Source: an uncultured Actinomycetes bacterium (lineage in GTDB: Bacteria; Actinomycetota; Thermoleophilia; RBG-16-64-13). Taken from it: a DNA stretch of 64,000 nucleotides. The position numbers and the translations under genes are program-made. Location of the stretch: positions 1-64,000 of the forward strand of contig CAIQPS010000094.1 in the NCBI GenBank assembly GCA_903873715.1. The letters run 5' to 3'. The first letter of the stretch is position 1; each line of letters starts with the position of its first letter. Of the stretch, positions 40,705 to 58,597 are shown piece by piece. The notes below the pieces were generated by a model. That model was not told the DNA's origin. It was given only the letters and a program-made list of their open reading frames with translations, and made no database searches.

Positions 40705-41499
40705 GTGGGCCAGCAACAGATGTCTCTCTCAGCGTTGGGAAGGCTCTTCGATCTCAGTGGCAAGGTCGCTGTCATCAGCGGTTCGAGCGGGGCGTTTGGC
40801 AACGCCATCGCTAGAGGACTGGCTGCCCATGGAGCCGACGTGGCGCTGTTGGACCGTGTCGGTCCGGTCTCCGCGACAGTGGGCGAGATCGAGTCGCTCG
40901 GCCGCCGGGCCTTGGCGCTCACCTGCGACGTCACCGACGAGCAGAGCGTGGAGGCCGCCATGGATGCGGTTGCCAAGGACTTGGGCAAGATCGACGCCTT
41001 GTTCGCGGTGGCAGGCATCGCGGTGCGCCGGGCCTCGGAAGAACTATCGCTCCCCGATTGGCAGAGGGTCATGGATGTGAATGTGAAAGGTACCTGGCTT
41101 TGCTGCACCGCTGCGGGGAGGCACATGATCCGCCAGGGCCATGGCGGAAAGATAGTGACGATCGGGTCGGTGCGCGGCTTTCTGGGCCACCCGGCAGGGT
41201 ATGGGGCCTACGGTACGTCCAAAGGCGCCGTACATCTTTTGACTAAGCAACTCGCTACGGAATGGGCGAAGTACGGGATCAACGTGAATTCCATCGCGCC
41301 CTCCGTCTTCTACACCACGCTCAACACGCCCATCATGGAGAACCAGGAACTGAGCGATCTTTTCCTCTCGAGGATCCCGATGCACCGTTTCGGCCAGCCG
41401 GACGAACTCGTCGGCGCCTCGGTGTTTCTGGCTTCGCCAGCCTCAGACTACGTCACCGGTCTGATTCTGTCCGTCGACGGTGGCGCGGTCGCCGGGTAG
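40705..41499 (+). CDS. short-chain dehydrogenase/reductase (SDR)
   Basis: A 264-residue classical SDR: nucleotide-binding SGSSGAFGNAIARG near residue 26, NxxG region replaced by AVAGIAV, active-site Ser in TIGSVRG, and Tyr169/Lys173 in YGTSK. The C-terminus ends LILSVDGGAVAG as usual. It resembles gluconate 5-dehydrogenase and related polyol/keto-sugar reductases. GTG 40705 follows AAAGGGG by 8 bases. It is the first gene of the island, 60 bases before an MDR dehydrogenase. Confidence 0.88.
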   Translation: MGQQQMSLSALGRLFDLSGKVAVISGSSGAFGNAIARGLAAHGADVALLDRVGPVSATVGEIESLGRRALALTCDVTDEQSVEAAMDAVAKDLGKIDALFAVAGIAVRRASEELSLPDWQRVMDVNVKGTWLCCTAAGRHMIRQGHGGKIVTIGSVRGFLGHPAGYGAYGTSKGAVHLLTKQLATEWAKYGINVNSIAPSVFYTTLNTPIMENQELSDLFLSRIPMHRFGQPDELVGASVFLASPASDYVTGLILSVDGGAVAG

Positions 41500-41559
41500 T
41501 CGTCCCATGTCCGTCGTCAGCATCGTTTTGACACTTCTTGCGCCTACGGAGGTGCGCGG

Positions 41560-42693
41560 ATGAGAGCCATCAGGCTACATGGCAGAGGCGATATCCGTTT
41601 GGAGGATGTCCCGGCCCCTGGCAGCCTCGGGCCGCGGGACGTTCTTATCAAGCCCCGGTTCTGCGGTATTTGCGGGACCGACCTTCACGAGTACGTGGAG
41701 GGGGCGCGCGTAGTGCCGAGCAAGCCCCATCCCATGACCGGCGCGATGCTTCCCCAGATCCTGGGTCACGAGTTGAGTGCCGATGTCGTGGAGGTCGGCA
41801 CGGATGTCGTCAACACCAAGCCGGGCGATCGCATAGCAGTGATGCCCGAGATCTCCTGCGGCCGCTGCTACTACTGCCAGCGCGGCTGGAATCATCTGTG
41901 CACTCTCCATGCGTGCGTCGGTCTCAGTTGGGCGTGGGGAGGCTTTTCGGAATATGCGGTCGTACCCGACTACAGCGCGGTTGTGCTGCCAGACGCAGTC
42001 TCGTACGAACAGGGAGCACTTCTCGAACCCACCGCCGTCGCCGCGTACGCAGTGGAACGGGGCCACCTTCAAGGAGGGGGGTCGATCCTCATCGCCGGTG
42101 CGGGCCCCATCGGCATCCTTGCCGCGCTCTACGCTCGGGCGATCGGGGCGGGTGCGGTCTACATCACGGAGACCAACGTGAAGCGCCTCGATCTGGCACG
42201 GTCTCTGGGCGTGTCCGAGGTTTTCAACCCAGCGGCCCCTGAGCGGGCCGCCGCCCGGAAACAGGGGAGAGACACGGCCACCGGCGTGTTCGACCCGTCG
42301 AAGAGTTGGGTGGTGGACGCACTTCGCGAGCGCACCGGAGGGGTCGGGGTCGATGTGGCTGTCGACTGTACGGGGAACGAGTTCGGGTTGAACACATGCA
42401 TCAACGCAGTCAGGAGTCGCGGGACGGTCGTCGAGTCGGCGCTGCACGTTCAGTCGCCTACCGTGGACATGTATGCGCTCGGTCTGAAGGACGCGAGCCT
42501 CGAAGCCACTTGGTGCTTCAACGTCTACGACTTCCCCAGGTACGCCTCTCTCATCGCGGCAGGCCGGCTACCGGTGGAGAAGGCGATCAGCGCGAAGATC
42601 CCGCTGGAGGACGTGGACGAAAAGGGTTTCAAGGTGCTCACCGACCCGAGCGGCGGCGCGACCAAGATCCTGGTGTACCCGGAGGCACACTAG
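41560..42693 (+). CDS. zinc-dependent MDR dehydrogenase, butanediol/sorbitol dehydrogenase-like
   Basis: A 377-residue medium-chain dehydrogenase. Catalytic zinc ligands are Cys38 (FCGICGTD), His70-Glu71 (GHE); structural zinc is Cys100, 103, 106 and 114 (CGRCYYCQRGWNHLC). The NAD-binding loop is AGAGPIG. The long insert near residues 215-245 and the N-terminal IRLEDVPAP are like (R,R)-butanediol dehydrogenases. It would oxidise a secondary alcohol. GGAGG precedes the ATG. It is cotranscribed with the SDR before it and the permease after it. Confidence 0.88.
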   Translation: MRAIRLHGRGDIRLEDVPAPGSLGPRDVLIKPRFCGICGTDLHEYVEGARVVPSKPHPMTGAMLPQILGHELSADVVEVGTDVVNTKPGDRIAVMPEISCGRCYYCQRGWNHLCTLHACVGLSWAWGGFSEYAVVPDYSAVVLPDAVSYEQGALLEPTAVAAYAVERGHLQGGGSILIAGAGPIGILAALYARAIGAGAVYITETNVKRLDLARSLGVSEVFNPAAPERAAARKQGRDTATGVFDPSKSWVVDALRERTGGVGVDVAVDCTGNEFGLNTCINAVRSRGTVVESALHVQSPTVDMYALGLKDASLEATWCFNVYDFPRYASLIAAGRLPVEKAISAKIPLEDVDEKGFKVLTDPSGGATKILVYPEAH

Positions 42694-42701
42694 ACCCGGC
42701 G

Positions 42702-43634
42702 ATGCAGTTCGGCACTGACACCCGGGCGGGCGGTCCACGTTCTCGTCTGCGCATCTCAGCCGGTAGTCTGGCCTTGGTGGTTCTCCCTCTCGTCTGGGCG
42801 TACGGCTGGACCGCGGCGAAGATAGGCGTGGCGTCGGCGGAACCCTTCATGGTGGGTGCACTACGCAATCTGGGGGCTGCGGTCGTCATCCTCGCCGTCG
42901 CCGCCTTCGCCCGGCGACCTCTTCGTCCGAGACCATTGGGCTGGCTGATCCTGCTTGGAGTCCTCCAGACCAGCGGGATGGTCGGTCTGTCAATGTGGGC
43001 TCTGCAACAAGGAGGCGCGGGTAAGGTCTCCGTACTCGCCTACACGATGCCGTTCTGGCTGCTGCTGCTCGCCGCGGTGTTCCTAGGCGAACGCATCCAC
43101 GGTGTGCAGTGGGCCGCAGTGGTGTGTGCGCTGGCCGGACTCGTGGCGATCATCGCGCCGTGGCGTCTCGCTGGGGTCGGCGGCAGTCTTCTCGCCGTGG
43201 GAAGCGGCTTGTTCTGGGCTGCCGGAGCGGTGGTGGTTAAAGTCATACGGAGCCGCTACGAGTGCGATCTTCTGGCGCTTACCGGCTGGCAGATGCTGTT
43301 CGGTGTGATTCCGCTGGCCCTCGTGGCTGCTCTGACCTTCCGTGAGGCTCCCCACTGGAACGGCTCGTTCATAGCCGCGTTGGGCTATCTCGTGGTGTTC
43401 TCCGAGGCGCTCGGTTGGTGCCTGTGGGTGTACGTGCTGAGGAAGATGCCTGCTTCCACGGCGGGTATAACGGTGCTCGCCACGCCGGTCATCGCGATAC
43501 TAATGTCCTGGGCACAACTGGGGGAGCGGCCGGGCGGGATGGAGGCGGTGGGGATGGCGCTGGTGGTGGTGGCGCTCTTCCTCATAACGGTCGGCGCCGT
43601 TATTGCGAGAAGAAGCGATAAAGGCGTGGGCTGA
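42702..43634 (+). CDS. EamA/DMT-family transporter
   Basis: A 310-residue protein with 10 hydrophobic segments in two homologous halves (EamA repeats): LVVLPLVWAYGWTAAKIGVA in the first and GSGLFWAAGAVVVKVIRSRY in the second. DMT carriers export or import small metabolites and amino acids. It starts 9 bases after the MDR stop. It may expel an intermediate or take in a product of the island; direction is unknown. Confidence 0.85.
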   Translation: MQFGTDTRAGGPRSRLRISAGSLALVVLPLVWAYGWTAAKIGVASAEPFMVGALRNLGAAVVILAVAAFARRPLRPRPLGWLILLGVLQTSGMVGLSMWALQQGGAGKVSVLAYTMPFWLLLLAAVFLGERIHGVQWAAVVCALAGLVAIIAPWRLAGVGGSLLAVGSGLFWAAGAVVVKVIRSRYECDLLALTGWQMLFGVIPLALVAALTFREAPHWNGSFIAALGYLVVFSEALGWCLWVYVLRKMPASTAGITVLATPVIAILMSWAQLGERPGGMEAVGMALVVVALFLITVGAVIARRSDKGVG

Positions 43635-43637
43635 GAC

Positions 43638-44216
43638 CTATCTCGAGGGAACTCCCTCGGGATCGGACGTCGGATAGCCGATGGCAGAAACTCGAGACGC
43701 CACACTCTCCATCCGCAGCCGGCGTTTGGACAAGCGCAGGGCCAACTCGTCTGCGAGAGACCCTGCCCAAGCCATTTCCTTGTCTCGGAGGCTAGCCAGG
43801 TACCGGCCGGTGGCCTCGAGGTCGGCGAGGAACCGAGCGCGGACGTCACCGGGCTCGAAGCCGAGGTCTACTGCATACGTGAAGACCCAACGGTCACCCT
43901 TGATGGCGAGTGGCACGTCGAACTCCGCCGAGGGAAGATAATTGACAAGGAATCCAGCGGGCATGACGGTCTTGACGTGGAACATGAGTTCCACTCGCGG
44001 GTTGACGGCCGACGCGATCTCGAGATGGTCGAGCCAGATGCACTCTTCGCACAACTGCGGTACCCCGACGCGGCGTCCAGTCACCAGCGAGACCGCCTGG
44101 GCCTGGAGGTCGGCGTCCGGGTGGGGGTCCACCTCGAACTGGTCCGCTTCCGCCCTGGCATCGTCCGCGGATCGGGCAAGCAAACCATCCAGCATGACGT
44201 TGTTGAATGTCAGCAT
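43638..44216 (-). CDS. hypothetical protein, conserved-looking, no family recognised
   Basis: A 192-residue soluble protein; GGAGG lies 7 bases upstream of ATG 44216. It has two cysteines in LCEECIWLDHLEI, the segment VELMFHVKTVMPAGFLVNYL and an acidic C-terminal helix region. Codon use matches neighbours. It is divergent from the MBL-fold pseudoenzyme and convergent with the transporter (3-base gap). The shared -10 box suggests it works with the 44300 product. No function is assigned. Confidence 0.6.
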   Translation of the reverse strand: MLTFNNVMLDGLLARSADDARAEADQFEVDPHPDADLQAQAVSLVTGRRVGVPQLCEECIWLDHLEIASAVNPRVELMFHVKTVMPAGFLVNYLPSAEFDVPLAIKGDRWVFTYAVDLGFEPGDVRARFLADLEATGRYLASLRDKEMAWAGSLADELALRLSKRRLRMESVASRVSAIGYPTSDPEGVPSR

Positions 44217-44260
44217 CTCGTGTCCTCCGAACTGTGGTGCGAAGCGAGCATCGCGGTGAC

Positions 44261-44267
44261 TATGATA
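44261..44267. promoter_or_regulatory. shared symmetrical -10 box TATGATA
   Basis: Reads TATGAT on plus (33 bases before TTG 44300) and TATCAT on minus (45 bases before ATG 44216). The 83-base gap has no other good -10 box, so this is likely to serve both genes. Confidence 0.5.
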
Positions 44268-44299
44268 GATTGCCGGCCGACAGATAGGGTGGGTCCCCG

Positions 44300-45118
44300 T
44301 TGAAACGCAGTCTCTTCAAAGCTCCAGCCCCCCGCTTTCACTCCTGGCCCCAGGTCCTTGCCGAACCCGCGTATTGGCGCGCTGACGAGTTCATGGTCGC
44401 CAGCACCGCGCTTGAGCACGCGGCCGCATACCTGCTTCGGCGGTATGTGTCGCGGTCGCCCGCTGGGGCGGATGACACTGCGGGTCTTGGCCGCCACATC
44501 ATCATGACCGGCGCAGTCGCCGGTCGCTCTATGCAGCAGGCGGCGCACTCCCGGAACGGCGCTCCGCCGAAGTCGGGTCAGGCAAGCATCGACTCGTCTG
44601 CCGTCGACTCGGTGCTCTTCACGCATATGCATGCCCCGCAGGTCTCCGCTCTTCGCGGGACCGAACGCAGCATGCTGTGCTTGTCCGGCAACGCAGAGCG
44701 GCCATCGGGCGGATTCCGGTCCTTCCCATTCGATCCCCTGTCCTTCGCGGCCCGCCTCGAGGAGTTCGATTTCGAGCGAGCCCCGGAGATGGCGCCACTC
44801 GGCCCGTGCATCGACGTCCTGGGTGACGGGAGCCTCTGGGCCATCTCCACCCCAGGCCCGACGATCGGATGTGTGTCGTACCTGGTGCTGACCGTGGGCG
44901 GTCCCCTTCTTGTCGCCGGTCTTCTCGCCGAGGCTCTCAGGTCCGGCGAGCCCGCTGTGGCCGGGCGTCACAAAGAGTTGGGCCGTTTTAGCCTCCAGCG
45001 CCTGCGCGCGTTTCTCGACTTCTATCCCGCCGTCCGCGTAGCACCTGGGACCGGCTACGAGAGCCCGACTTCGAGGATGGTGGATGGCGAGGAAGTCACC
45101 CAGGGTCTGTTCGAGTAG
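44300..45118 (+). CDS. metallo-beta-lactamase-fold protein lacking most metal ligands (probable pseudoenzyme)
   Basis: A 272-residue protein read from TTG 44300 (GGGTGGG upstream). The order of motifs is that of MBL hydrolases: VDSVLFTHMHAPQVSALRG stands where VLLTHxHxDHVGGLR is normal, and LGDGSLWAISTPGPTIGCVS plus YLVLTVGGPLLVAGL stand where DG..V..TPGHTPGHVS..GPLLLTGD is normal. HxHxDH has become HMHAPQ, GHT is GPT, the next His is Cys, and the bridging Asp is Leu. Only the first HxH remains. The frame is intact and the rest looks conserved, so this appears to be a non-catalytic or altered member, possibly a binding or regulatory protein. The fold call is by eye. Confidence 0.65.
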   Translation: MKRSLFKAPAPRFHSWPQVLAEPAYWRADEFMVASTALEHAAAYLLRRYVSRSPAGADDTAGLGRHIIMTGAVAGRSMQQAAHSRNGAPPKSGQASIDSSAVDSVLFTHMHAPQVSALRGTERSMLCLSGNAERPSGGFRSFPFDPLSFAARLEEFDFERAPEMAPLGPCIDVLGDGSLWAISTPGPTIGCVSYLVLTVGGPLLVAGLLAEALRSGEPAVAGRHKELGRFSLQRLRAFLDFYPAVRVAPGTGYESPTSRMVDGEEVTQGLFE

Positions 45119-45150
45119 CGGACCGGGAGGCAGGTCTGCGGGATCCGTGG

Positions 45151-46215
45151 TCAGAAAACCACCATGACCTTTACCGCCTCGGCCTTATGCGAAACGGCGA
45201 TGTCTACCGCTCCATGAAGGTCCGCGAACGGCACGCGATGCGAGATGAGAGTGGTGAAATCGGCCGTTCTGCGCGCACGGTCCATGAACCGGATCGTGCG
45301 CGGGGTGAAGTCCGAGACGCCGCCCTGTCCGTAGATCGACATACCTCTCCAAAGGGTCTTGCCGATCTCCACCGGCACTTTGTGGCCCACCGTGTGCCCT
45401 ATCAGCCGGACTCGGCACTGGAAGCCGGCGACATCGAAGACCGAGGCGACCGCACCATCGTTCCCCGATGCCTCCACCACCAGGCTGGGACCTCTTCCCG
45501 CAACACACACCTGGGCGATCTGCGGGGCCAACTCCCCGGCCGGTGGTGGTGTCAGGGTGACATCGGCTCCCAACCGCGTAGCGAGGGCCAGCCGGTTGGG
45601 CAGCGGATCGACCACCACCACTCGAGCTCCAGCCGTCTTGCAGGTAATCAGCGCGCTCAGCCCGATGGGGCCCGCGCCGAAGATCACCACGTCATCGCTC
45701 GCGTCCACCCAGCCACCGGGCCCCCATATACCGTAGTAGCCGACGCCGAACGGCTCCACCAAAGCACCTTCTTCGGCCGTCCAATCATCTGGGAGCCTGT
45801 GCAAGTAGCTGTCTTCGATAACCAGATACTCGCCCCACGCTCCGGGGGAATCCGGCCGGAAACCGGCCTCCCGCATGTTCAGGCAGGCCGCGGGCATCAG
45901 GCCCTGCTTGCAGTTGGCGCATCTGAAGCATTTGAGGACGCAGTCTCCGGTCACCTTGTCGCCGACGGCGAATCCGGAGACCATATCTCCCAGCGCGGCA
46001 ACCTGACCGGCCCATTCGTGTCCGGGGGTGTAGGGAGCGAGGTCGTATCGCCCTTCCTTGGATTCGCCCTCGAAGCATTCGACGTCCGACCCGCAGATGC
46101 CGGCCGCCTGAACACGAACGAGCACCTGGCCCGGCCCCGGGTCGGGGATGGCCAGGTGCTCGATTCTCAAGTCGTGCGGACCATGCAGGAACGCGACTTG
46201 TTGTGTTCGGGGCAT
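45151..46215 (-). CDS. zinc-dependent MDR dehydrogenase (L-iditol/threonine dehydrogenase-like)
   Basis: A 354-residue enzyme. Catalytic zinc: Cys41 (GICGSD) and His in YTPGHEWAG; structural zinc: CFRCANCKQGLMPAAC. NAD site IFGAGPIGLSA with acidic Asp in VVVVDPL, indicating NAD rather than NADP. The C-terminus (FADLHGAVDIAVSHKAEAVK) matches the sorbitol-dehydrogenase group. It lies 7 bases after the flavin reductase gene in one minus-strand operon (VOC, flavin reductase, MDR). Substrate unknown. Confidence 0.88.
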   Translation of the reverse strand: MPRTQQVAFLHGPHDLRIEHLAIPDPGPGQVLVRVQAAGICGSDVECFEGESKEGRYDLAPYTPGHEWAGQVAALGDMVSGFAVGDKVTGDCVLKCFRCANCKQGLMPAACLNMREAGFRPDSPGAWGEYLVIEDSYLHRLPDDWTAEEGALVEPFGVGYYGIWGPGGWVDASDDVVIFGAGPIGLSALITCKTAGARVVVVDPLPNRLALATRLGADVTLTPPPAGELAPQIAQVCVAGRGPSLVVEASGNDGAVASVFDVAGFQCRVRLIGHTVGHKVPVEIGKTLWRGMSIYGQGGVSDFTPRTIRFMDRARRTADFTTLISHRVPFADLHGAVDIAVSHKAEAVKVMVVF

Positions 46216-46222
46216 CGTGCTG

Positions 46223-48277
46223 TCAGACCTTGCAGGCGGTCTCCCGCGCTTCGGTCAGCGCGTTGATTATCAGCGACGAATCCACACCGTTGCCGCAACC
46301 GATGCTGTAGACCTCGGGGACGTCCCCGTCTATCTCGTGCTTGAGCCGGTCGTTCGCGCCCGGAGGAAGCAGGACCATGACAGTGTCGGCCGCTAGGGCG
46401 CGCTTCGTGCCGTCTTTCAACGTGATGTCGACGCCGCTGTCCGTGATCTTGTCATAGGTGACCCCGGTCAGCACTTCGACGCCCTCCTTGGCCAGCCAGG
46501 GCAGCGTCCGCTTGATGTAACGCGGAGGCATGCGACCGCCAAGACTCTCCGACTCCTCGAGGACCGTCACCGTGCGCCCTCTCTTCTTCAGGAAGACCGC
46601 GCCCTGCAACCCTTCGATCTGGCCGCCGATGATCACCACCCGCTTGCCGACGCCCGGCAGGGCTATGTTCGAGAGCTTGCCGACGGCATTGGCACCCAGC
46701 ATGCGAAGTGGCCGCTCAGCGGTCCGGGCCAGGCTCGCGACTCCTTCGACGTTCCGGTTCAAGATGCCCGGTATGTCCTCGGGCAGCACGTAGTTGCCGC
46801 CCACTGCCAGTATCACCACGTCAGGTTTGTTCGCCAGCACCACGTGCTTGTCGGCTTCCACGCCTGTCTTGATGGTTATGGGCAGACGCTGGACCTGACG
46901 CGACAGGTAGTCGATGACCGTGGTGACGTCGTCGAAGTCGGTCCCCTTCAGCATCGCGGCAAGGTGCAACTTGCCTCCCAGGTGGCCACTCCTCTCTAGG
47001 AGAATCACGTCATGACCACGAAGGGCGGCCACGCGGGCAGCTTCCATGCCAGCCGGCCCTGCCCCGACCACCAGGACCTTCTTCTTCGTGGGAGCGGGGG
47101 TGATAGCCAGTTCTTTTTCACGGCCAAGAGCCGGGTTCACGCGGCAGCGGCGAGGCCCGTCTTGCGGGTCTTCGCAGGTGGCGCAGCGGCAGCACCTGAC
47201 GATGTCTTCCCTGTTCCCCGCCAGCACCTTGTTGGGCAACTCGTGGTCGGCCCACAAGCCTCGGCCGAGCAGGATCAGATCGGCCTTGCCATCCTTCAGG
47301 ATCTCCTCACCCAAGTCCTCATCCAGGCGGCCGACAGCGATGACTGGGATGCCGACCGACTTCTTGACGGTCGCGGCACTCGGCACCAGGAGACCCGTCT
47401 TGAACTGCTTCACGTACGGTTTCATGAAATCGTCCGGTTCCGGATACGGCCAGTAATCCGGGACGTACTGGAATGGGGCCTTGCCGTACCCATACCCCGC
47501 CAGGCTGATGTAGTGGGCTCCGGCGCGCTCGAACCACGTCCCGGCCTCGGCGGCCTCCGCCGGCGTCATGGCTTTCGGATGGCCGAACTCCTGCCCGTTG
47601 ATCCGCACTCCGATGACGAAGTCCTCGCCGCACCGCTCTTTGATCCCCGCGATGATCTCCCGGTGCAAACGGGTGCGGTTCTCCATGCTTTGCGGCCCGT
47701 ACTGGTCGGTACGATAGTTCCACGCCCTGCTGAGGAAGCTCATCAAGAAATAGCCGTTCGCCGAGTGGCACTCGATGCCGTCGAAACCGCATTTCTTCGC
47801 ACGCACCGCGGCCTCGATGTAGTCGGCCTTCATGGCTTCGATCTCCTCGGTGGTCACGCCGTGCGTGGGAGCGAGATAGTCGAGAGGCAACTGGTCGACG
47901 GTCAGCGTCGTAGAGGCGAGAGGGGTGTAGGTCGTTGAGATGGGCGCCGGCCCAGGGTGATGCAGTTGCGCGAGTATGTGGCAGTCGTGTTTGTGCACGG
48001 CCGCGGCCAGTTCGGTCATCCCTGGGATGTGGCGGTCTTGTGAGAGCCCGCCGAAAAGGAAGGGCAGTTCCGGCTCCGCCGGCTGGAACAGGATGGCGCC
48101 GACGAGGATCATGCTCGCCCCGCCCTCCGCGATACCTTCATACAGATCGATCACCCGGTTGGTGATCATTTGCCCCTCGAGCCAGTACTCGCTCGACTGT
48201 GGAGCCTTGACGATGCGGTTCTTCAGCGTCAGGCTTCCGACCTGCAAGGGGGAAAAGAGCCTCTCGTAATTCTTCAA
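46223..48277 (-). CDS. NADH:flavin oxidoreductase/enoate reductase (TMADH/FadH/BaiCD-type)
   Basis: A 684-residue iron-sulfur flavoenzyme of the usual size for the family. N-terminal old-yellow-enzyme barrel (LKNRIVKAPQSSEY at the start, GFDGIECHSANGYFLMSF with active-site His/Asn and Tyr), a cysteine cluster CCRCATC plus a later Cys in RRCRVNP for a 4Fe-4S cluster, then FAD/NAD domains (VLVVGAGPAGMEAARVAALRG and VVIIGGQIEGLQGAVF). Such enzymes reduce conjugated enones or enoyl thioesters, or demethylate amines. In this island, reduction of a ring enone formed by the dehydrogenases is plausible. Confidence 0.9.
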   Translation of the reverse strand: MKNYERLFSPLQVGSLTLKNRIVKAPQSSEYWLEGQMITNRVIDLYEGIAEGGASMILVGAILFQPAEPELPFLFGGLSQDRHIPGMTELAAAVHKHDCHILAQLHHPGPAPISTTYTPLASTTLTVDQLPLDYLAPTHGVTTEEIEAMKADYIEAAVRAKKCGFDGIECHSANGYFLMSFLSRAWNYRTDQYGPQSMENRTRLHREIIAGIKERCGEDFVIGVRINGQEFGHPKAMTPAEAAEAGTWFERAGAHYISLAGYGYGKAPFQYVPDYWPYPEPDDFMKPYVKQFKTGLLVPSAATVKKSVGIPVIAVGRLDEDLGEEILKDGKADLILLGRGLWADHELPNKVLAGNREDIVRCCRCATCEDPQDGPRRCRVNPALGREKELAITPAPTKKKVLVVGAGPAGMEAARVAALRGHDVILLERSGHLGGKLHLAAMLKGTDFDDVTTVIDYLSRQVQRLPITIKTGVEADKHVVLANKPDVVILAVGGNYVLPEDIPGILNRNVEGVASLARTAERPLRMLGANAVGKLSNIALPGVGKRVVIIGGQIEGLQGAVFLKKRGRTVTVLEESESLGGRMPPRYIKRTLPWLAKEGVEVLTGVTYDKITDSGVDITLKDGTKRALAADTVMVLLPPGANDRLKHEIDGDVPEVYSIGCGNGVDSSLIINALTEARETACKV

Positions 48278-48322
48278 CGTGTTCTCCCTCGTGTTGCTAC
48301 CCGTGCCAGTACCAGGTCTCGG

Positions 48323-48784
48323 CTAGCCCTCGGACTCGACCAGCTCCAGGCAGATGCCGTCGGGGTCTCTGAAGTAGCACCATTTCCAGTCGGGCTTCCC
48401 AGTCTCCTTGAAGACATTGATGGGAGAGTGGAACTCGACGCCCAGATCTTCAAGACGCTTGCGTTCTGCCGCCACGTCGTCGACTCTGAGAGCCAGGTGG
48501 GCCGATCCTGCGATCGAGGGGTTCATATGATAGGGCTGGCAGGCCGGGTCCTTGTACTGGATGAACTCGATCCGATTGCCGGCCAGTTCCATCACCGCGA
48601 TCTCGAGTTCCGCATGGGACTGGCTGAGGCCCCACTTCGTTCCGAAGAGCGCGGTGCCCAGTCCGTCGTACTCGTTGCGGCTGCGGGAGCGCAGCGTCAA
48701 CCCGAGCACATCCTTGTAGAAGTGCACGGTGTCCTCGATATCCGTGACCGAGAAGCTCATGTGGTGCGCGCCTAGAATTGACAC
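48323..48784 (-). CDS. VOC (glyoxalase-like) protein
   Basis: A 153-residue VOC protein; GTG 48784 is used because GGGAGA lies 6 bases upstream, though the frame stays open to 48925. Pattern: ILGAHHMSFSVTDIEDTVHFY at the start and KWCYFRDPDGICLELVE at the end carry the His and Glu metal ligands; the middle has GSAHLALRVDD. It is a close paralogue of the VOC protein at 22333. It is first in the VOC/flavin-reductase/MDR operon. Likely an epimerase or isomerase of a pathway intermediate. Confidence 0.82.
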   Translation of the reverse strand: MSILGAHHMSFSVTDIEDTVHFYKDVLGLTLRSRSRNEYDGLGTALFGTKWGLSQSHAELEIAVMELAGNRIEFIQYKDPACQPYHMNPSIAGSAHLALRVDDVAAERKRLEDLGVEFHSPINVFKETGKPDWKWCYFRDPDGICLELVESEG

Positions 48785-48887
48785 TCGATCTCCCTTCTCG
48801 CCGGCGCAGATGTTCGGCGTGTTGATGCCTTGCGCCGGGTCCTCGGGTGTTCTGCCGCCGATTGTTCTTGCTCTGCCCGGTGTTTTA

Positions 48888-48899
48888 CTAATATCACAG
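48888..48899 (-). promoter_or_regulatory. element TGTGATATTAGT upstream of the VOC operon
   Basis: On the minus strand these 12 bases are identical to 40661-40672 before the first SDR gene; the following AAAAC resembles TTAAC there. It is 104 bases upstream of GTG 48784. Confidence 0.5.
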
Positions 48900-48908
48900 C
48901 AATGGCGA

Positions 48909-48928
48909 AGTGTGAATACCCACACTTA
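48909..48928. promoter_or_regulatory. inverted repeat AAGTGTG-N6-CACACTT
   Basis: Perfect 7-bp arms (48909-48915 and 48922-48928) around AATACC, next to the 48888 element. Arms and 20-bp span are right for a dimeric regulator such as the XRE-cupin protein at 55478. Confidence 0.45.
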
Positions 48929-49133
48929 AAGGACGAGAGGCACGTGCGGTAGGCTGACTCGTCTCCGAATCGCCCGACGTCCGGTAGACCCGAAGCGCCT
49001 CTTGCTGCATGAAATTGCTGTAAATCATGGGTTTATTGGCAGCCGCAAACCCGTGGGTCGCGGTAGACATACCAGGGGGAGCCCGTGCCAGGGAGATTGT
49101 TTCCCCAAAGAAAATTCCCGTCTCAGAATTCGC

Positions 49134-49179
49134 AACTAGTTAAACTCCTCTTGACTTTTGTTTAACCCAGCCCTATGGT
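49134..49179 (+). promoter_or_regulatory. promoter TTGACT-N17-TATGGT with upstream palindrome AACTAGTT
   Basis: -35 box TTGACT (49151-49156) and -10 box TATGGT (49174-49179) are 17 bp apart; AACTAGTT (49134-49141) is a perfect palindrome 9 bp before the -35 box. CTAGTTAA is shared with the 40661 element. It drives the SDR at 49218 and probably the ABC genes. Confidence 0.6.
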
Positions 49180-49217
49180 GTCCACGGTGGTGAACACCTG
49201 ACGGAGGGGAATTCCTG

Positions 49218-50018
49218 ATGACCCAAGCGGGTTACAAAGGCTTGAAGGGCAAAGTCTGCGTCGTCACAGGTGCGGCTCAAGGGATCGGTCGGGGGATCGC
49301 CACGCGGCTGGCCCAGGAGGGCTGCTCGGTCATCTTCGCCGATCTCAAGACTGCGGATGTGGAATCCGCCGCTGAAGCCGCTCGGGCTGCTGGAGGCCGG
49401 GCGGCCTCCTTCACCGTCGACGTCACCGAACGCTCGTCCGTGGCAGGCTTGGTGCAGTATGCAGCAGAGACCTTCGGCGCTCTCGACGTCATGTTCAACA
49501 ACGCCGGCATCACCCACGGGTGCGACTTCCTTGATCTTCACGAACGGGATTTCGACCGGGTGATGAGGGTGAACGGCTTAGGAGTGCTCTTCGGCATCCA
49601 GGAAGCCGCCAAACAGATGATCAGCCAAGGGACAGGCGGCAAGATCGTCAACACCAACTCTCAAGCGGGCAAGACGGCGTGGCCAGACTATGCCGGCTAC
49701 TGCGCGAGCAAGTTCGTGGTGAGTTCCTTGACGCAATCGGGTGCCCGAGCACTCGCCAAGCACCGGATAACAGTCAATTCCTTCGCCCCCGGCCTGGCGC
49801 GGACTCCCATTTGGGAAGTGCTCGAGGCCGATGCCATGGCTGCCGGGCAGATCCATGAGCGGGGGGAGATGGTCAAGGAGTTCGAAAAGGGCATCTTGCT
49901 GGGACGCGGTCAAGAGCCAGGGGAGTTCGGGGGCATCGCCTGCTATCTCGCCTCTGAGGATTCCGACTGGATCACGGGGCAGACCATCATGATCGATGGC
50001 GGGATGGTCTTCCTGTAG
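49218..50018 (+). CDS. short-chain dehydrogenase/reductase (SDR)
   Basis: A 266-residue classical SDR: GAAQGIGRGIATRLA (cofactor loop), NNAG in MFNNAGITHG, active Ser in VNTNSQAGK and Tyr161/Lys165 in YCASK. It ends TGQTIMIDGGMVFL. The Asp in IFADLKT suggests NAD preference. It resembles acetoin/butanediol and polyol dehydrogenases. GGAGGGG precedes the ATG. It is the first gene of the transporter operon, about 100 bases before the binding-protein gene. Confidence 0.9.
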   Translation: MTQAGYKGLKGKVCVVTGAAQGIGRGIATRLAQEGCSVIFADLKTADVESAAEAARAAGGRAASFTVDVTERSSVAGLVQYAAETFGALDVMFNNAGITHGCDFLDLHERDFDRVMRVNGLGVLFGIQEAAKQMISQGTGGKIVNTNSQAGKTAWPDYAGYCASKFVVSSLTQSGARALAKHRITVNSFAPGLARTPIWEVLEADAMAAGQIHERGEMVKEFEKGILLGRGQEPGEFGGIACYLASEDSDWITGQTIMIDGGMVFL

Positions 50019-50115
50019 CGGGTGTTTTCGGGTCGATGTGATAAGGGGGTGACTTGCAGCCTGTCAGAGGCGAAGGGTTCAGGGCAACTGAGCGATCAAC
50101 AAGGGAGGGCGAGTT

Positions 50116-51534
50116 GTGAGTGACGAGATCAAGAACGTAAGTCGTCGAGAGTTCCTGAAACTGGCCGGCATCGCCGGTGCCACGCTCGGCGTGGGTGCCG
50201 GAGTCGGTGGTTTCCTTGCTTCGTGCGGCGGCGAGACCACTACGACCACCGGTGCCACCACGGCCACTACCGCGGCTGCCACCAGCAGCACCGCGGGTGT
50301 TGCCACCACGGCCGTGTCGGCCGGCACCGAGACGACCGCTGCTGCCGCGCAGCTGGCCATTCCGCTCGGCTCGGGCCAGCATATGGTCAACATCGCCGAG
50401 ACCGCGGCGAACGACTACTTCAAAGAATGGCAGAGGGGCGCCCAGCAGGCCTGCGACGCTCTCGGCCTGACCCAGGACTATCTGTCCAGCAATATGGACG
50501 CCAACCTTGCTCTGAGCCAGATGGAGACCGCTGGTACTCAGGGCGTCAAGCTGGCTGTCAGCTGCACCCCCGGCCCCGGCCCGCTCCCGCAGGTCGCCGC
50601 CGCTGCCAACAAGTACAAGATCTCCTACTGCAACACCTGGGACTGCCCGGAGTGGGTGCTTCCCCAGGACATGGGCTTCGAGAACGAGAACAGCTACTTC
50701 GTCACCTACTTCTCGCCTCTGGCCTTCAAGATCCATTACCTCAAGACCAAGCTGCTGTTCGACAAGATGGGCGGCGAGGGCGGCCTCGTCCACATCTCTG
50801 GTCTGCCCGGCGGCTCGGCTGACTGGCACCGCACCGTGGCCTGCGACATGGCGCTGAAGGAATATCCCAAGATCAAACTGCTGTACCGGGAGGCGGGTTC
50901 CTGGGTGCGTGACAAGTCCCAGACCGCCATGGAAGCCGCCATCGCCCGCTTCGGCAAGGACATCAAGGGCGTCATCGGCCAGAACGACGACGAAGCGGCC
51001 GGTTGCATCGCAGCCCTCGACGCCGCGAACATGACCGACGTCCCGGTGGTGGGCTCCGACGGTACGTCCGAAGCTCTCAACTTCATCAAGAGCGGTCGCA
51101 TGCTTGCTACCGTGATGGACATCGCCACCTGGCAGGCCGGCTACATGGTCGTCCGCGCCTTCGACCGCGCGAATGGCTGGATGCCGTCCCCGGTGGAGCG
51201 CATCATGAACTCCGAGGGCATCCTCGCCACCACGGACAACGTCCAGCAGATCATGGACAAGTTTATCAACAACAAAGAACCGGCCTTCGACTTCAAACTC
51301 ATGTCTCAGGTGCTCCATCCGGACGATTGGGATGTCCAGAACGGTCTGGTGTGCCTGCGTCCGGATGACTGGTGGGGCCCGGGGCCGGTCGCCAAACCGG
51401 CCGATTGGGACGCCAAACATCCCGAGTACGTGGCCGCAGTCAAAGCCGGCGACTACGACAAGTACGACAAGCTGTACGCGGATCACTACAAGAAAAAGAC
51501 GTACGACGGCATCCCCAAGGCCATCTACGGCTAG
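50116..51534 (+). CDS. sugar-type ABC transporter substrate-binding lipoprotein (RbsB-like)
   Basis: A 472-residue protein starting at GTG 50116 (GGGAGGG upstream). Tat motif SRREFLKLAG (9-18) and lipobox FLASC (Cys37), then a Thr/Ala linker (about 40-80) and a periplasmic-binding type 1 domain of the ribose/galactose group (GVIGQNDDEAAGCIAAL, then VPVVGSDGTSEALNFI). The export signal and linker closely match those of the 7305 protein. It feeds the ATPase and permease genes that follow. Ligand: sugar, polyol or similar. Confidence 0.92.
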   Translation: MSDEIKNVSRREFLKLAGIAGATLGVGAGVGGFLASCGGETTTTTGATTATTAAATSSTAGVATTAVSAGTETTAAAAQLAIPLGSGQHMVNIAETAANDYFKEWQRGAQQACDALGLTQDYLSSNMDANLALSQMETAGTQGVKLAVSCTPGPGPLPQVAAAANKYKISYCNTWDCPEWVLPQDMGFENENSYFVTYFSPLAFKIHYLKTKLLFDKMGGEGGLVHISGLPGGSADWHRTVACDMALKEYPKIKLLYREAGSWVRDKSQTAMEAAIARFGKDIKGVIGQNDDEAAGCIAALDAANMTDVPVVGSDGTSEALNFIKSGRMLATVMDIATWQAGYMVVRAFDRANGWMPSPVERIMNSEGILATTDNVQQIMDKFINNKEPAFDFKLMSQVLHPDDWDVQNGLVCLRPDDWWGPGPVAKPADWDAKHPEYVAAVKAGDYDKYDKLYADHYKKKTYDGIPKAIYG

Positions 51535-51547
51535 AACGCGCCCCGAT

Positions 51548-51580
51548 GGTGCACCCGAGGCCTGGGGCCTCGGGTGCACC
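51548..51580 (+). terminator. perfect 15-bp hairpin between binding-protein and ATPase genes
   Basis: GGTGCACCCGAGGCC (51548-51562) pairs with GGCCTCGGGTGCACC (51566-51580) over TGG. It lies 13 bases after the binding-protein stop. A CTTGTTAG tail is T-poor, so partial termination or protection of the upstream mRNA is likely, which would give more binding protein than ATPase. Confidence 0.75.
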
Positions 51581-51632
51581 GGCTTGTTAGTATGTTGAAA
51601 CGACCGTCCACAAACATGTGCTTCCATCCGAA

Positions 51633-51648
51633 ATCTCCGCTCGGAGAT
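51633..51648. promoter_or_regulatory. palindrome ATCTCCG-CT-CGGAGAT
   Basis: Perfect 7-bp arms with 2-base centre, 37 bases upstream of the ATPase start. It is a candidate operator for internal control, or a small hairpin that influences the GGAGG ribosome binding site downstream. Confidence 0.45.
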
Positions 51649-51685
51649 GTTCTGAGAGCACATATTTCTCGGAGGACCGCCGAAG

Positions 51686-53209
51686 ATGGCTGAGATTCAT
51701 CTGACCGCACGGGGTCTTACCAAGGACTATCCAGGCGTGCGAGCGCTCGATGATGTCAGCATCGACATCTACGAGAACGAAGTCGTCGGACTCATAGGTG
51801 AGAACGGCGCGGGCAAGTCGACGTTCCTCAACGTCGCAAGCGGCATCACGAAGGCCACTCACGGCGAGATGCTGCTACGTGGCCAGCCATTCCAGCCGAT
51901 CGGCTATCACAGTTCGATGCTGCAAGGCGTGGACCGCGTGTTTCAGGAACAGGCCCTCGTCCCGAACCTCAGGGTCTACGAGAACATGTTCCTGTCGCAC
52001 GAGAAGCACTTCAAGAAATGGGGCGTCCTGCTCGACCAGCGGAAGATGGCGGACAGCGCGCGCAAGGAACTGTCGCTGCTCGGCCTGGACATCGATCCCA
52101 CCAGCCTGACCGAGAACTTCAATACCGCCACCCGGCAACTTATCGAGATCGCCCGAGCGTGCACGATGTCCGCCTGGCTGGGCATCGACCGGCCACTGAT
52201 CCTCTTGGACGAGCCGACCGCCTCGCTTCCTGCCGCTGACGTGGACATACTGTTCGACGTCGTCCGCAGGCTCAAACAACGGGCGTCCTTCGTGTTCGTC
52301 TCACACCGCCTGCCCGAGGTCCTGGCTCTGAGCGACCGGATTTATGTGATGAAGGACGGGAGGGTCGTCGCAGAGACGACTCCGGGTGCCGCCTCCGAAG
52401 GCACGCTCCACGCACTGATGGTGGGCCGTGAGCGAGTGGCGGACTACTACAGAGAATCACGACAGACCTGCTCTTTCGGGGATGAGGTCCTACGGGTCGA
52501 AGGGCTTTCGATCTCCGGAGTGTTCTCCGATGTGAGTCTGTCCGTGAGGTCCGGTGAGATCGTGGGTATCGGCGGCGTGCTGGGTTCCGGCAAGACCGAG
52601 GTCGGCCGGGCTATCGCCGGTGTGCTCTCTGGCGCGACGGGCGAGATGACGGTCTGCGGCGACATGCACGTGAGCCGGAGCGTTGCCGATGCCATGGAGC
52701 GGGGCGTCGCCTACATGCCTCCCGAGCGTCACACCGAGGGCGTCATGCTCGGCGAGCCTGTCGATTGGAACATGTCCCTCGCTTGCCTGGCGAAGGGATT
52801 CGGCCGCAACGGCTGGCTGGATGTGGGGCATGAGCGCAAGCAGGTGGAGGAATACATCCACCTGCTGGGCGTGAAGACCCCGAGCCGACGGACCCAACTG
52901 CTCAGCTTGAGCGGCGGCAACCAGCAGAAGGTAGTTCTCGCCAAATGGCTGCTGACCGATCCCAAGGTCTTGATCCTCGACAACCCCACTCATGGGATCG
53001 ACGCCGGCGCCAAAGAGGAGATCTACGAGTTGCTCCGCAACTTGGCCGATCAAGGGGTCGCGATCCTCGTCATCACCGATGACCTGGCCGAACTCATCGG
53101 CCTGAGCGATCGCATCCTGGTCATGAGAGACGGAACGATCACTTGGCAGGGAGACACTCCCTGCGGAGCCAAGCCGTCCGAGAAAAACGTCATTGCGAAC
53201 ATGGTCTAA
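51686..53209 (+). CDS. sugar-type ABC transporter ATP-binding protein (RbsA/MglA-like, two ATPase domains)
   Basis: A 507-residue tandem ATPase. First domain: Walker A GENGAGKS (38-45), Walker B LILLDEPTA; its signature LSxxQRQ is altered to NTATRQLIEIARA. Second domain: P-loop GGVLGSGKTE (usually GxxGAGRTE) and intact signature LSGGNQQKVVLAKW with VLILDNPTHGID. An Asn replaces the usual catalytic Glu of Walker B in domain 2. Degenerate sites are common in this family. It powers uptake with the 53228 permease. Confidence 0.93.
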   Translation: MAEIHLTARGLTKDYPGVRALDDVSIDIYENEVVGLIGENGAGKSTFLNVASGITKATHGEMLLRGQPFQPIGYHSSMLQGVDRVFQEQALVPNLRVYENMFLSHEKHFKKWGVLLDQRKMADSARKELSLLGLDIDPTSLTENFNTATRQLIEIARACTMSAWLGIDRPLILLDEPTASLPAADVDILFDVVRRLKQRASFVFVSHRLPEVLALSDRIYVMKDGRVVAETTPGAASEGTLHALMVGRERVADYYRESRQTCSFGDEVLRVEGLSISGVFSDVSLSVRSGEIVGIGGVLGSGKTEVGRAIAGVLSGATGEMTVCGDMHVSRSVADAMERGVAYMPPERHTEGVMLGEPVDWNMSLACLAKGFGRNGWLDVGHERKQVEEYIHLLGVKTPSRRTQLLSLSGGNQQKVVLAKWLLTDPKVLILDNPTHGIDAGAKEEIYELLRNLADQGVAILVITDDLAELIGLSDRILVMRDGTITWQGDTPCGAKPSEKNVIANMV

Positions 53210-53227
53210 GGCGCCGAGGAGGAAACG

Positions 53228-54223
53228 GTGAGTAGTGAAGTGACGACAACGGCATCAGCCACTGTCGGGTCGACGAAAGCCCGGAGGATCCGGCTCCAGG
53301 GACCTGTGTTGGCTCTGATGTCTCTCGTGCTGCTGTTGATAGTGTTCTCCGCCTTGAACGCCAGGTTCTTCAGCGTGGACAACCTCTACAACATCTTGAG
53401 AGGCACGTCCGTGCTCCTCGTGGCCGCTTCCGGTGCCACGTTCATCATCATGATGGGCAGTATCGACCTGTCTGTCGGCGCGGTGGTGGGCGGGGTCGGC
53501 ATCGTCGCCGGCGTCCTCCTGCGTGACTATGGGACCGGGGCCTGGACGATCCTGATCGTATTGGTCCTTGGATTGATCATCGGCGCCTTCAACGGCTTTC
53601 TCTTCGCCTACATAAAGCTTCCCAGCTTCCTGGTGACACTCGGCTCGCTCAGTATCGTCGTCGGCCTCTCGGACGTGCTGGTGAACGGCGTCCCGGTGCA
53701 AGTCGATCGGCACCAGGCGTTCGTGAAGATCCTCGGAGGGACGATCAACAACTTCCCGATCATCGCCCTCTGGGCCATCTTCGTGGTGATCGTCTGCATA
53801 ATCGTTGCCTTCAGGACCAGGTTCGGCCGCTACATGTTCGCGCTGGGCGGCGGCGAGAGGGTGGCCGCGCTGGCCGGTCTGCCTGTTCGGCGTTACAAGC
53901 TGTACGCCTTCCTGGTGGCCGGCGTACTGGCCGCTTTCGCGGCTTGCCTGCTGACCGCCCGCCTATCCTCGGGCTCGCCGGGCATGGGCGACTCCTATCT
54001 GCTCGACTCGATCGCGGCTGTCGTCATGGGCGGCACGGCTCTGAGCGGCGGCGTCGGCGGCCCGCACCGGACCATCCTGGGGGCGCTCATCATCGGCGTC
54101 CTAAGCAACGGTCTGAACCTGGTCGGCGTGGACCCGTTCTGGCAGATGGTCGTAAAAGGCTTCGTCGTGATCGTTGCGGTCATCATGAGCATCGACCGGT
54201 CGAAGATCCAGATCGTCAAGTAA
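53228..54223 (+). CDS. sugar-type ABC transporter permease (RbsC-like)
   Basis: A 331-residue membrane protein with about nine hydrophobic segments. The EAA-like loop is ALAGLPVRRYKLYAFLVAGV and the C-terminal DSIAAVVMGGTALSGGVGG is typical of RbsC/XylH. GTG 53228 follows AGGAGG. It forms a homodimer channel with the 51686 ATPase. No second permease is present, as normal for this class. Confidence 0.93.
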   Translation: MSSEVTTTASATVGSTKARRIRLQGPVLALMSLVLLLIVFSALNARFFSVDNLYNILRGTSVLLVAASGATFIIMMGSIDLSVGAVVGGVGIVAGVLLRDYGTGAWTILIVLVLGLIIGAFNGFLFAYIKLPSFLVTLGSLSIVVGLSDVLVNGVPVQVDRHQAFVKILGGTINNFPIIALWAIFVVIVCIIVAFRTRFGRYMFALGGGERVAALAGLPVRRYKLYAFLVAGVLAAFAACLLTARLSSGSPGMGDSYLLDSIAAVVMGGTALSGGVGGPHRTILGALIIGVLSNGLNLVGVDPFWQMVVKGFVVIVAVIMSIDRSKIQIVK

Positions 54224-54334
54224 GACCGTCGCTCCACCGGCCGGGCCGGATCAGCGACTTGCTCGAGAGAACACCAGGGGCGGGGGTCCCGCTGCTGGGT
54301 CGCTCCACCCAGACACAGATACTAGGAGGACACC

Positions 54335-55357
54335 TTGAAAGGCTTCGTCATCACCGCCCCGAACGAGTACGCGTACCAGGACTTCCCCGATCCGGTCATC
54401 AGCGACGACGAGGTCCTCATCAAGTCCCGGGCGAGTGGTATCTGCCATTCGGACTACGAACTGATCTCCGGGCAGTACATCATCCCGTTCACGTACCCCG
54501 TGATCCCGGGCCACGAGTGGTCCGGAGAAGTGGTGGACGTAGGCAGGAACGTCACCCGGTTCAAGGCCGGCGACCGGGTCGTGGGCGAGTGCGTCATCGG
54601 TTGCGGAGCGTGCCCCATCTGCCAGAGCGGGAACTTCACCAACTGCCCGACTTCCGATCACTTCGGTTTCACCATCAACGGCGCCCATGCTGAATACCTG
54701 AAAGCGAAGCCTGAGTGGCTGCACAAGCTGCCGGACGCCGTCTCCTACAAGCAAGGAGCGCTCATCGAGCCGTTCAGCGTGGCCTACCACGCGATCGTGG
54801 CCAACGGGGGAACCGACGCCAGCGAGGTCGTGGCTGTTCTGGGCGGCGGCCCCATCGGCCAGGCTGCCGTTGCCGCGGCCAGTGGTATGGGTGCACGGGT
54901 CGTGCTCATCGAGCCGTTGGCCCATCGTCAGGAGATCGGCAAGAAACTGGGCGCGACGACGGTCGTCGACCCGACCTCGGCTGACGCGGTAGAAGTGGTC
55001 AAGGAGATGACCGGAGGCTTCGGTGCTGACCTCGTGATCGAATCGGCCGGTGTAGACGCTTCGCTGGCATCGGCGTTCAACCTGCCTAGGAACAACGGGC
55101 GCATCTCGTTCGTGGGTATCAATATCGGCAAGGTCATCCCGGTGGAACTGGGCAAGATCCAGGCAAGAGGCCTACAGGTCAAGGGGATGGTCGGCTCTCC
55201 ATACGTCTGGGAACGGTGCATCGCTTTCCTCGCGCACAGCGGCAAAGACATCTCTCCGATCGTTACCCACGAGTTCAAGTTGGACGAGGTGGAGGATGCG
55301 TTCACCCTTGCTTCAAAACGTTCCGAGTGCATCAAGGTGATGGTGTTCAACGACTAG
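54335..55357 (+). CDS. zinc-dependent MDR dehydrogenase
   Basis: A 340-residue enzyme starting at TTG 54335 (AGGAGGACACC upstream). Catalytic zinc ligands in SGICHSDYE and PGHEWSGE; structural zinc CGACPICQSGNFTNC. Cofactor loop LGGGPIGQAA with Glu in VLIEPLA. It belongs to the same broad group as the 45151 and 58598 proteins. It lies 111 bases after the permease, in the same transcription direction, so the imported compound may be its substrate. Confidence 0.88.
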   Translation: MKGFVITAPNEYAYQDFPDPVISDDEVLIKSRASGICHSDYELISGQYIIPFTYPVIPGHEWSGEVVDVGRNVTRFKAGDRVVGECVIGCGACPICQSGNFTNCPTSDHFGFTINGAHAEYLKAKPEWLHKLPDAVSYKQGALIEPFSVAYHAIVANGGTDASEVVAVLGGGPIGQAAVAAASGMGARVVLIEPLAHRQEIGKKLGATTVVDPTSADAVEVVKEMTGGFGADLVIESAGVDASLASAFNLPRNNGRISFVGINIGKVIPVELGKIQARGLQVKGMVGSPYVWERCIAFLAHSGKDISPIVTHEFKLDEVEDAFTLASKRSECIKVMVFND

Positions 55358-55407
55358 AGCCGCCTGCGCTTGCTAACGCGCGGCATGGTGAGTGTGTAAA
55401 CTAAAGG

Positions 55408-55436
55408 TTGAAAGCTGAGGCTTGCTCAGGTATGCC
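55408..55436 (+). promoter_or_regulatory. promoter TTGAAA-N17-TATGCC of the XRE-cupin gene
   Basis: TTGAAA (55408-55413) and TATGCC (55431-55436) are 17 bp apart. A start point near 55443 would give a 35-base leader to ATG 55478. The nearby GTAAACT/AAAGG segment is a possible binding site for the regulator itself. Confidence 0.45.
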
Positions 55437-55477
55437 AACGAAGTTTGTGGACTGAGCGATGGGGTGCGCACGAAGAG

Positions 55478-56167
55478 ATGGCTGAAGATCAAGAAATGCC
55501 TGCAGTCGTAGAGCGTCTGACCCAGCTGGGCCTGAAGATCCGCGAGGCTCGCCGCATGCGCGGCCTGACTCTCCAGGAGCTTGCAGGGAAGGTCGGCCTC
55601 ACGGCGAGCCACATCAGCCAGATAGAACGTGGGCTCACGAGCCCGTCTGTGAGTGCGCTCTTGAGCATCGCAGGTGCGCTCGATCTCCCCATGGAGCACT
55701 TTTTCGCCCACGAGCAAGACGCCCCGATGATCGCACGCTCGGTCCTTTCAGCTCACGCGCTCCTCACCAGACAACCGGCCCCTGGCAACGGCTCGCAGGG
55801 TGCCGAGGCCTCGACGCGCTCACGAAGCGGTGAGAAGAGCCCAGTGGTCATCCCCGAGGACCGGGAGACCATCAACATCATCGGCGGCATCCAGTGGCAG
55901 CGGCTGACGCCGACCAACGAGGAGGCAATCGAGTTCCTCGAGTTGCACTACGCGCCGGGTGCGTCGAGCGGGGAACACGCATATGCTCACCGCGGGAGAG
56001 AGTTCGGCCGTGTGCTACAGGGCACGCTGCTCGTCGAGCTCGGTTTCTCTAGGTACACGCTTCACGAAGGCGATGCCATCACCTTCGATTGCAGCATTCC
56101 GCATCGTTTCACCAACATAGGCGACGATCCGTTCATCGGTGTGTGGGTGATCCTCGATCGGCTGTAG
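55478..56167 (+). CDS. XRE-family regulator with C-terminal cupin domain
   Basis: A 229-residue protein from ATG 55478; an in-frame TTG at 55445 would add 11 residues. Helix-turn-helix: IREARRMRGLTLQELAGKVG then TASHISQIERGLTSPSVSAL (about 20-60). A variable linker (about 95-130) leads to a cupin domain (GASSGEHAYAHRGREFGRVL, then GDAITFDCSIPHRF). This is the common SutR/PuuR-like design, where the cupin senses a small metabolite. It sits at the centre of the island and is the best candidate for its regulator. The last codons form part of a long inverted repeat. Confidence 0.9.
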   Translation: MAEDQEMPAVVERLTQLGLKIREARRMRGLTLQELAGKVGLTASHISQIERGLTSPSVSALLSIAGALDLPMEHFFAHEQDAPMIARSVLSAHALLTRQPAPGNGSQGAEASTRSRSGEKSPVVIPEDRETINIIGGIQWQRLTPTNEEAIEFLELHYAPGASSGEHAYAHRGREFGRVLQGTLLVELGFSRYTLHEGDAITFDCSIPHRFTNIGDDPFIGVWVILDRL

Positions 56168-56203
56168 CCCGGGGCCTCACCGGCCCCGAGCTACAGCCGA
56201 TCG
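56155..56203. terminator. 49-base inverted repeat spanning the XRE stop codon
   Basis: CGATCGGCTGTAGC (56155-56168) pairs perfectly with GCTACAGCCGATCG (56190-56203), and CGGGGCC (56170-56176) with GGCCCCG (56182-56188), one mismatch between, loop TCACC: 21 paired bases in all. It covers the TAG stop. No T-run follows. It can stop transcription, stabilise the mRNA end or bind a dimeric protein. Confidence 0.75.
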
Positions 56204-56307
56204 TCATACGTCTCTGACCCGAACTGGGTTCTCTTTCTCCACAATCGTCCTCCGGCGCTTGTAGCTCCTGTGCACGCAACCGTCAGATTGCGCTCCCATG
56301 AGTTTGG

Positions 56308-56350
56308 GTCAGCTGAAATTCATCCTGTCAGTTGAAATGCTAGTTGAATT
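56308..56350 (+). promoter_or_regulatory. three AGTTGAAAT-like repeats upstream of the cupin gene
   Basis: GTCAGCTGAAAT (56308-56319), GTCAGTTGAAAT (56327-56338) and CTAGTTGAATT (56340-56350). The third copy also supplies a -35 box TTGAAT, 17 bp before TAATTT (56367-56372). An A/T-rich region with activator-type repeats before a new transcription unit. Confidence 0.45.
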
Positions 56351-56435
56351 ATTGGTGGCTACGTTGTAATTTGGCATTCGTACCCAGGTAATGCCGATGT
56401 CTCCCGCGATGACGGGGACCGAGGAGGCGATCTGC

Positions 56436-56795
56436 ATGTCAGGCAAGCTCTGCAAAGTCACCAAGGACAGCACGTGGGTGACCGAAGTGCCCAATCACAT
56501 CGCGTACCGCTTGACCCCGATGGTGAGCCCCAAGACCTGCCCTGGCGCGCAGATCGAATTCTATGTAGGGGAGTTCGAACCGGGCAAAGGGGGGGCGATC
56601 CCGCATACCCACGCCAAAGAGGACCATGTCTTCTACGTGCTTTCCGGCCGCGCGACCTCCAAGGTTGGCGACGAGGTCCACATGTGCGAGCCCGGTGACG
56701 CCCTATGGGTCCCGGCGGGCGAGATGCACGACTTCGACGTGGTCGGCGGCGAGACCTTCCGCGTCATCGCCATCTTCTCGCCGCCTCGCGCGTAG
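56436..56795 (+). CDS. cupin-domain protein
   Basis: A 119-residue single-domain cupin. ATG 56436 is preferred since GAGGAGG lies 8 bases upstream; a longer frame to 56391 lacks that. Metal motif: IPHTHAKEDHVFYVLSG (His, His, Glu-like positions) and the second motif PAGEMHDFDVV. Cupins act as isomerases, dioxygenases, decarboxylases or lyases. It begins the last operon of the island (cupin, hydroxyacid dehydrogenase, cyclase, MDR, SnoaL). Role undefined. Confidence 0.82.
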   Translation: MSGKLCKVTKDSTWVTEVPNHIAYRLTPMVSPKTCPGAQIEFYVGEFEPGKGGAIPHTHAKEDHVFYVLSGRATSKVGDEVHMCEPGDALWVPAGEMHDFDVVGGETFRVIAIFSPPRA

Positions 56796-56837
56796 GCCAC
56801 GTATCCCGCATCTCCGGCTGCGAAGGAAAGGATTGAC

Positions 56838-57740: not shown

Positions 57741-57872
57741 ACGGCGGCCGTATTCGTCTCCTCCTTTTGAGCGCCCCGCCTATGTGGAGGCGGCGTGTGC
57801 TCTCAGTCAGACCCCTCGCCGCCCGTCCCCTTCCGGCGAGGGGTCTTCTCCTTCCACGAGAAAGGCGCGACG

Positions 57873-58574: not shown

Positions 58575-58597
58575 ACCCCCTCACCAAGGAGCAGCCG

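Follow-up and report, generated by a model that had tools for sequence, protein, structure and literature searches.

Among described proteins, the closest to the one analysed here (the query) are N-acyl-homoserine lactonases (AHL lactonases) of the AttM/BlcC and AiiA type (NF045700; PDB 9khq, 9kho, 2a7m; PMC5924552), against which the intact relatives of the query obtain their best scores. AHL lactonases have in common with the query family the layout of an HxHxDH motif, a TPGHxxGH motif, a metal-bridging Asp and a C-terminal GHD motif, and blcABC (attKLM) likewise places a lactonase in a catabolic setting, AttM/BlcC being part of a gamma-butyrolactone catabolic operon (PMC5924552). Metallo-beta-lactamase (MBL)-fold proteins with non-catalytic roles have been described as well: CPSF100 and INTS9 are subunits described as catalytically inactive that accompany an active homologue in a non-catalytic role (PMC4819959), and PqsE of Pseudomonas has a regulatory role separable from catalysis (PMC12077149). 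The query differs from each of these. Unlike AHL lactonases, it is devoid of five of the seven metal ligands and of the LVDTG strand, and it shares only about 30% identity with its nearest intact family members. CPSF100 and INTS9 are subunits conserved in eukaryotes, and the active protein that they accompany is known; the query, a bacterial relative of lactonases, stands alone and has no known partner. PqsE retains catalytic activity, unlike the state that we propose for the query.

The window, by which we mean the whole stretch of 64,000 nucleotides analysed, carries at the predicted position a real open reading frame (ORF) of 272 codons whose frame is intact [Table 1]. Profile comparisons bear out the predicted MBL layout and identify residues ~71-254 of its product, and these only, as homologous to AttM/AiiA-type N-acyl-homoserine-lactonase-like MBL proteins: residues 71-253 score 66 bits against a profile built from 34 relatives, and hhalign matches residues 93-254 to the family profile with a probability of 98.4%. 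The best relative (in genome G359) was found with an E-value of 1.3e-14 and 33% identity. Homologues are present in 84 of the 399 same-class genomes sampled, the window's own genome counted, mostly at 25-35% identity; none was found in 17 other genomes of the query's own family. With the query, searches of Pfam (including PF00753) and NCBIfam and a single-sequence search of the PDB returned no significant match, nor did the query match at the curated NCBIfam cut-off for AHL lactonases; the by-eye MBL reading of the original prediction went beyond what standard libraries detect. The relatives do match Pfam Lactamase_B, and the best NCBIfam match of the intact ones is NF045700 (AttM-type N-acyl-homoserine lactonase), but under its 390-bit cut-off. 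Among structures they come closest to the lactonases 9khq/9kho and AiiA/AiiB, with whose structures their metal motifs align. The query's genome holds 22 Lactamase_B matches; neither the query nor its lactonase family has a close counterpart among the 15 compared as candidate intact paralogues.

Table 1. Features of the MBL-like gene and its surroundings (positions in the window).
Feature	Position	Strand	Remarks
MBL-like ORF	44300..45118	+	272 aa, TTG start, TAG stop
N-terminal ~70 residues, LVDTG strand missing	44300..44509	+	No recognisable family similarity
HMHAPQ, residues 109-114	44624..44641	+	HxHxDH position; two Zn1 His kept, Asp to Pro, His to Gln; from alignment with 86 relatives and AiiA-type mapping
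GPTIGC, residues 186-191	44855..44872	+	GHTxGH position; ligand His to Pro, second-shell His to Cys
Leu208	44921..44923	+	Metal-bridging Asp position; AGDA to AGLL
Thr251	45050..45052	+	C-terminal ligand His position; PGHD to PGTG
Divergent neighbour, 192-aa orphan	43638..44216	-	Good Shine-Dalgarno (GGAGG), normal coding signature
Catabolic island	40705..59677		Dehydrogenases, OYE-type reductase, VOC protein, sugar ABC transporter, cupin regulators

The seven metal-ligand columns are invariant among 78 well-aligned intact relatives, and the 86 aligned relatives all show the full ligand set wherever these columns are aligned, with the exception of three proteins (L007, L025 and L036). Out of the seven ligands of an AHL lactonase (HxHxDH, His, Asp and His), the query keeps two (H109 and H111, in the motif THMHAPQ), the other five being replaced by P113, Q114, P187, L208 and T251, none of which is a His, Asp or Cys. 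All of the substitutions originally predicted (HMHAPQ, GPT, GC and a Leu at the bridging Asp) are present. The statement that nearly all metal ligands are replaced holds to the extent that five of seven are gone, but the Cys column that it invoked is not a ligand column and the replacement of the GHD His by Thr had been overlooked. The former column (H191) holds an invariant His in the family and Cys in the query; in AHL lactonases, this second His of GHTxGH belongs to the second shell and does not bind the metal. An invariant Glu-Trp pair of the family is also deleted. Retained, on the other hand, are the structural residues D172, D176-G177-S178, T184-P185-G186, G190, S231 and P243, together with the framework motifs DGS, TPGxxxG, SLxxLxxF and YPxxxxxPG. 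Compared with the loss of five of seven ligands, two of nine non-ligand invariant residues (one-sided Fisher p 0.07) and 13 of the 34 residues in a broader conserved set (p 0.12) are lost, such that a preferential loss of ligands appears suggestive only and is not significant. Although relatives other than the three exceptions have intact ligands, a local sequencing or assembly error, which the original prediction had also considered, does not explain five separate ligand changes in a protein differing over ~70% of its sequence, and the island lies within one contig between genes of native composition.

On balance, we read the gene as encoding a translated, fast-evolving orphan pseudoenzyme, presumably descended from an AttM/AHL-lactonase-like MBL enzyme. 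With five of seven ligands gone, the dinuclear metal site would be unable to assemble, which should make lactone hydrolysis by the family mechanism impossible; judging from its residues, the protein is probably unable to cut any substrate. The structural framework, and perhaps the pocket as well, would survive.

Searches of ~760 sampled genomes and of plasmids, and a pattern scan covering 85,000 species, revealed no close orthologue of the query; nor did the best hit's own family, a sample of the phylum or another class yield a closer relative. A search for homologues that conserve the substitutions, as originally suggested, gave no such case: none of about 90 relatives shares them, and because no orthologue does so, purifying selection on the query cannot be shown. 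The terminal branch leading to the query measures 6.8 changes per site in the full alignment (median, 0.18) and 7.4 in the aligned core (median, 0.33), and is so long that the protein has no firm place in the tree. The main rival to the pseudoenzyme reading builds on such features. It holds that a lactonase-like gene is under relaxed selection and gradually turning into a pseudogene, its frame being open in part because GC-rich DNA has few stops; we consider it a serious explanation, if an unlikely one. The extreme branch, the orphan status, the weak Shine-Dalgarno sequence preceding the TTG start and a ligand loss not significantly above that of other conserved residues all agree with it, as does the coding signature, which is the weakest among the island genes scored: the codon log-odds of 0.118 compares with 0.212 or more in 15 other island genes (leave-one-out) and lies near that of shadow ORFs (0.10 and below), and the synonymous codon signal wanes toward both ends of the gene. 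Between positions 40000 and 60000, eighteen such shadow ORFs with lengths of 150-558 aa lie across real genes but in a different frame; ORF length alone is thus poor coding evidence in this region, and the open frame of the query, given shadow ORFs of up to 558 aa, is weak evidence. Against relaxation or decay, the GC3 periodicity is kept (0.768, at the level of adjacent island genes), the frame runs uninterrupted through residues 71-253 with indels only in multiples of three, and neither an in-frame stop nor a frameshifted remnant is found. Moreover, when three intact relatives were mutated neutrally in a simulation that ignores frameshifts and indels, the joint probability that at least five ligands are lost and no stop is acquired was at most about 1%. 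The original argument that an intact frame speaks against a decaying gene is therefore weak in view of the shadow ORFs and the intermediate coding score, yet the simulation disfavours simple neutral decay. The low probability of neutral decay combined with the intermediate coding score favours a translated but loosely constrained protein. Alternatively, selection may have ended recently on a query protein that was already divergent, which is possible.

The N-terminal part of the query raises the question of a chimeric ORF, in which an MBL C-terminal fragment would be joined to an unrelated N-terminal stretch, perhaps with no folded MBL domain. No frame of the query contains a recognisable counterpart of the first ~130 residues of the family, LVDTG strand included; its profile match begins at residue 71 (residue 93 with hhalign), residues 1-70 match nothing, and the family N-terminal profile had no match in any of the six frames, the empty six-frame searches also dismissing a frameshifted N-terminus. 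An AlphaFold model computed with three remote relatives from viral contigs yielded no fold (pLDDT 33), but this poor confidence reflects the shallow alignment. Moreover, the 107 aa preceding THxH, although ~30 residues shorter, come close to the about 137 aa of the relatives, and scattered N-terminal residues align with them, making a chimera improbable. Very improbable is a repurposed enzyme in which His 109 and 111 and other residues would hold one metal, or act metal-free, in a new activity: the first two His persist, as do the turns TPGxxxG and DGS, and partial sites exist in the family (L007 and L036 have the Zn1 ligands and neither Zn2 His), but Pro occupies the position of the third Zn1 His and Leu that of the bridging Asp, with no new His, Asp or Cys at these columns, and two His alone make a poor metal site.

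The gene was proposed to share a divergent promoter with its neighbour. The divergent geometry stands, with a gap of 83 bp between the two ORFs, but no sigma70-like match was found. For the neighbour, 99 genomes, plasmids and the 85,000-species pattern scan gave no relative. GC3 values are mostly 0.75-0.86 in the island versus mostly 0.85-0.93 in the genes of both flanks, and a search of 299 same-class genomes at E 1e-60, in which only six candidates per genome were scored, found nothing close to the adjacent ADH, both observations suggesting a horizontal origin of the island. Around the best OYE homologue found (50% identity, in G652) there is no MBL, ADH or orphan gene. As AttM/BlcC sits in a catabolic operon, a lactonase ancestor would by analogy fit an island of this kind. 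The likeliest function of the pseudoenzyme, if any, would be non-catalytic and might be to bind a protein partner or an intermediate, a lactone or a sugar acid, from the pathway of the neighbouring dehydrogenases. Since inactive MBL folds exist and PqsE separates regulation from catalysis, a ligand-binding or scaffold role is conceivable. More specifically, the protein might bind without metal and, within a sugar/lactone catabolic island gained by horizontal transfer, sense or shuttle a lactone intermediate or serve dehydrogenases as a scaffold, but this proposal is doubtful. If expressed and folded, the query would represent a bacterial MBL-fold protein nearly stripped of its metal site within a group of quorum-quenching lactonases, where the inactive MBL folds that we found described in the literature are eukaryotic, and same-class lactonases having lost one or two ligands would add to it a series on metal loss in a metalloenzyme. 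A single orphan sequence cannot yet carry such claims.

The three partly degraded relatives belong to the same lactonase family as the query and share with it ligand loss and branches longer than those of most intact members; unlike the query, each is a full-length and in other respects typical member with no more than one or two ligands lost. L007 (1138-2043, + strand) and L036 (1471-2373, - strand), from different genera of one family, have open frames and have lost the same two Zn2-site His, the last His of HxHxDH being changed to Arg and that of the C-terminal GHD to Leu or Lys, with retention of the Zn1 ligands. This lactonase-like gene is nearly universal in that family (46 of 50 genomes). 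In L025 (1144-2043, + strand), Asp replaces the GHT ligand His, and its genome (G365) also has an intact copy (L045).
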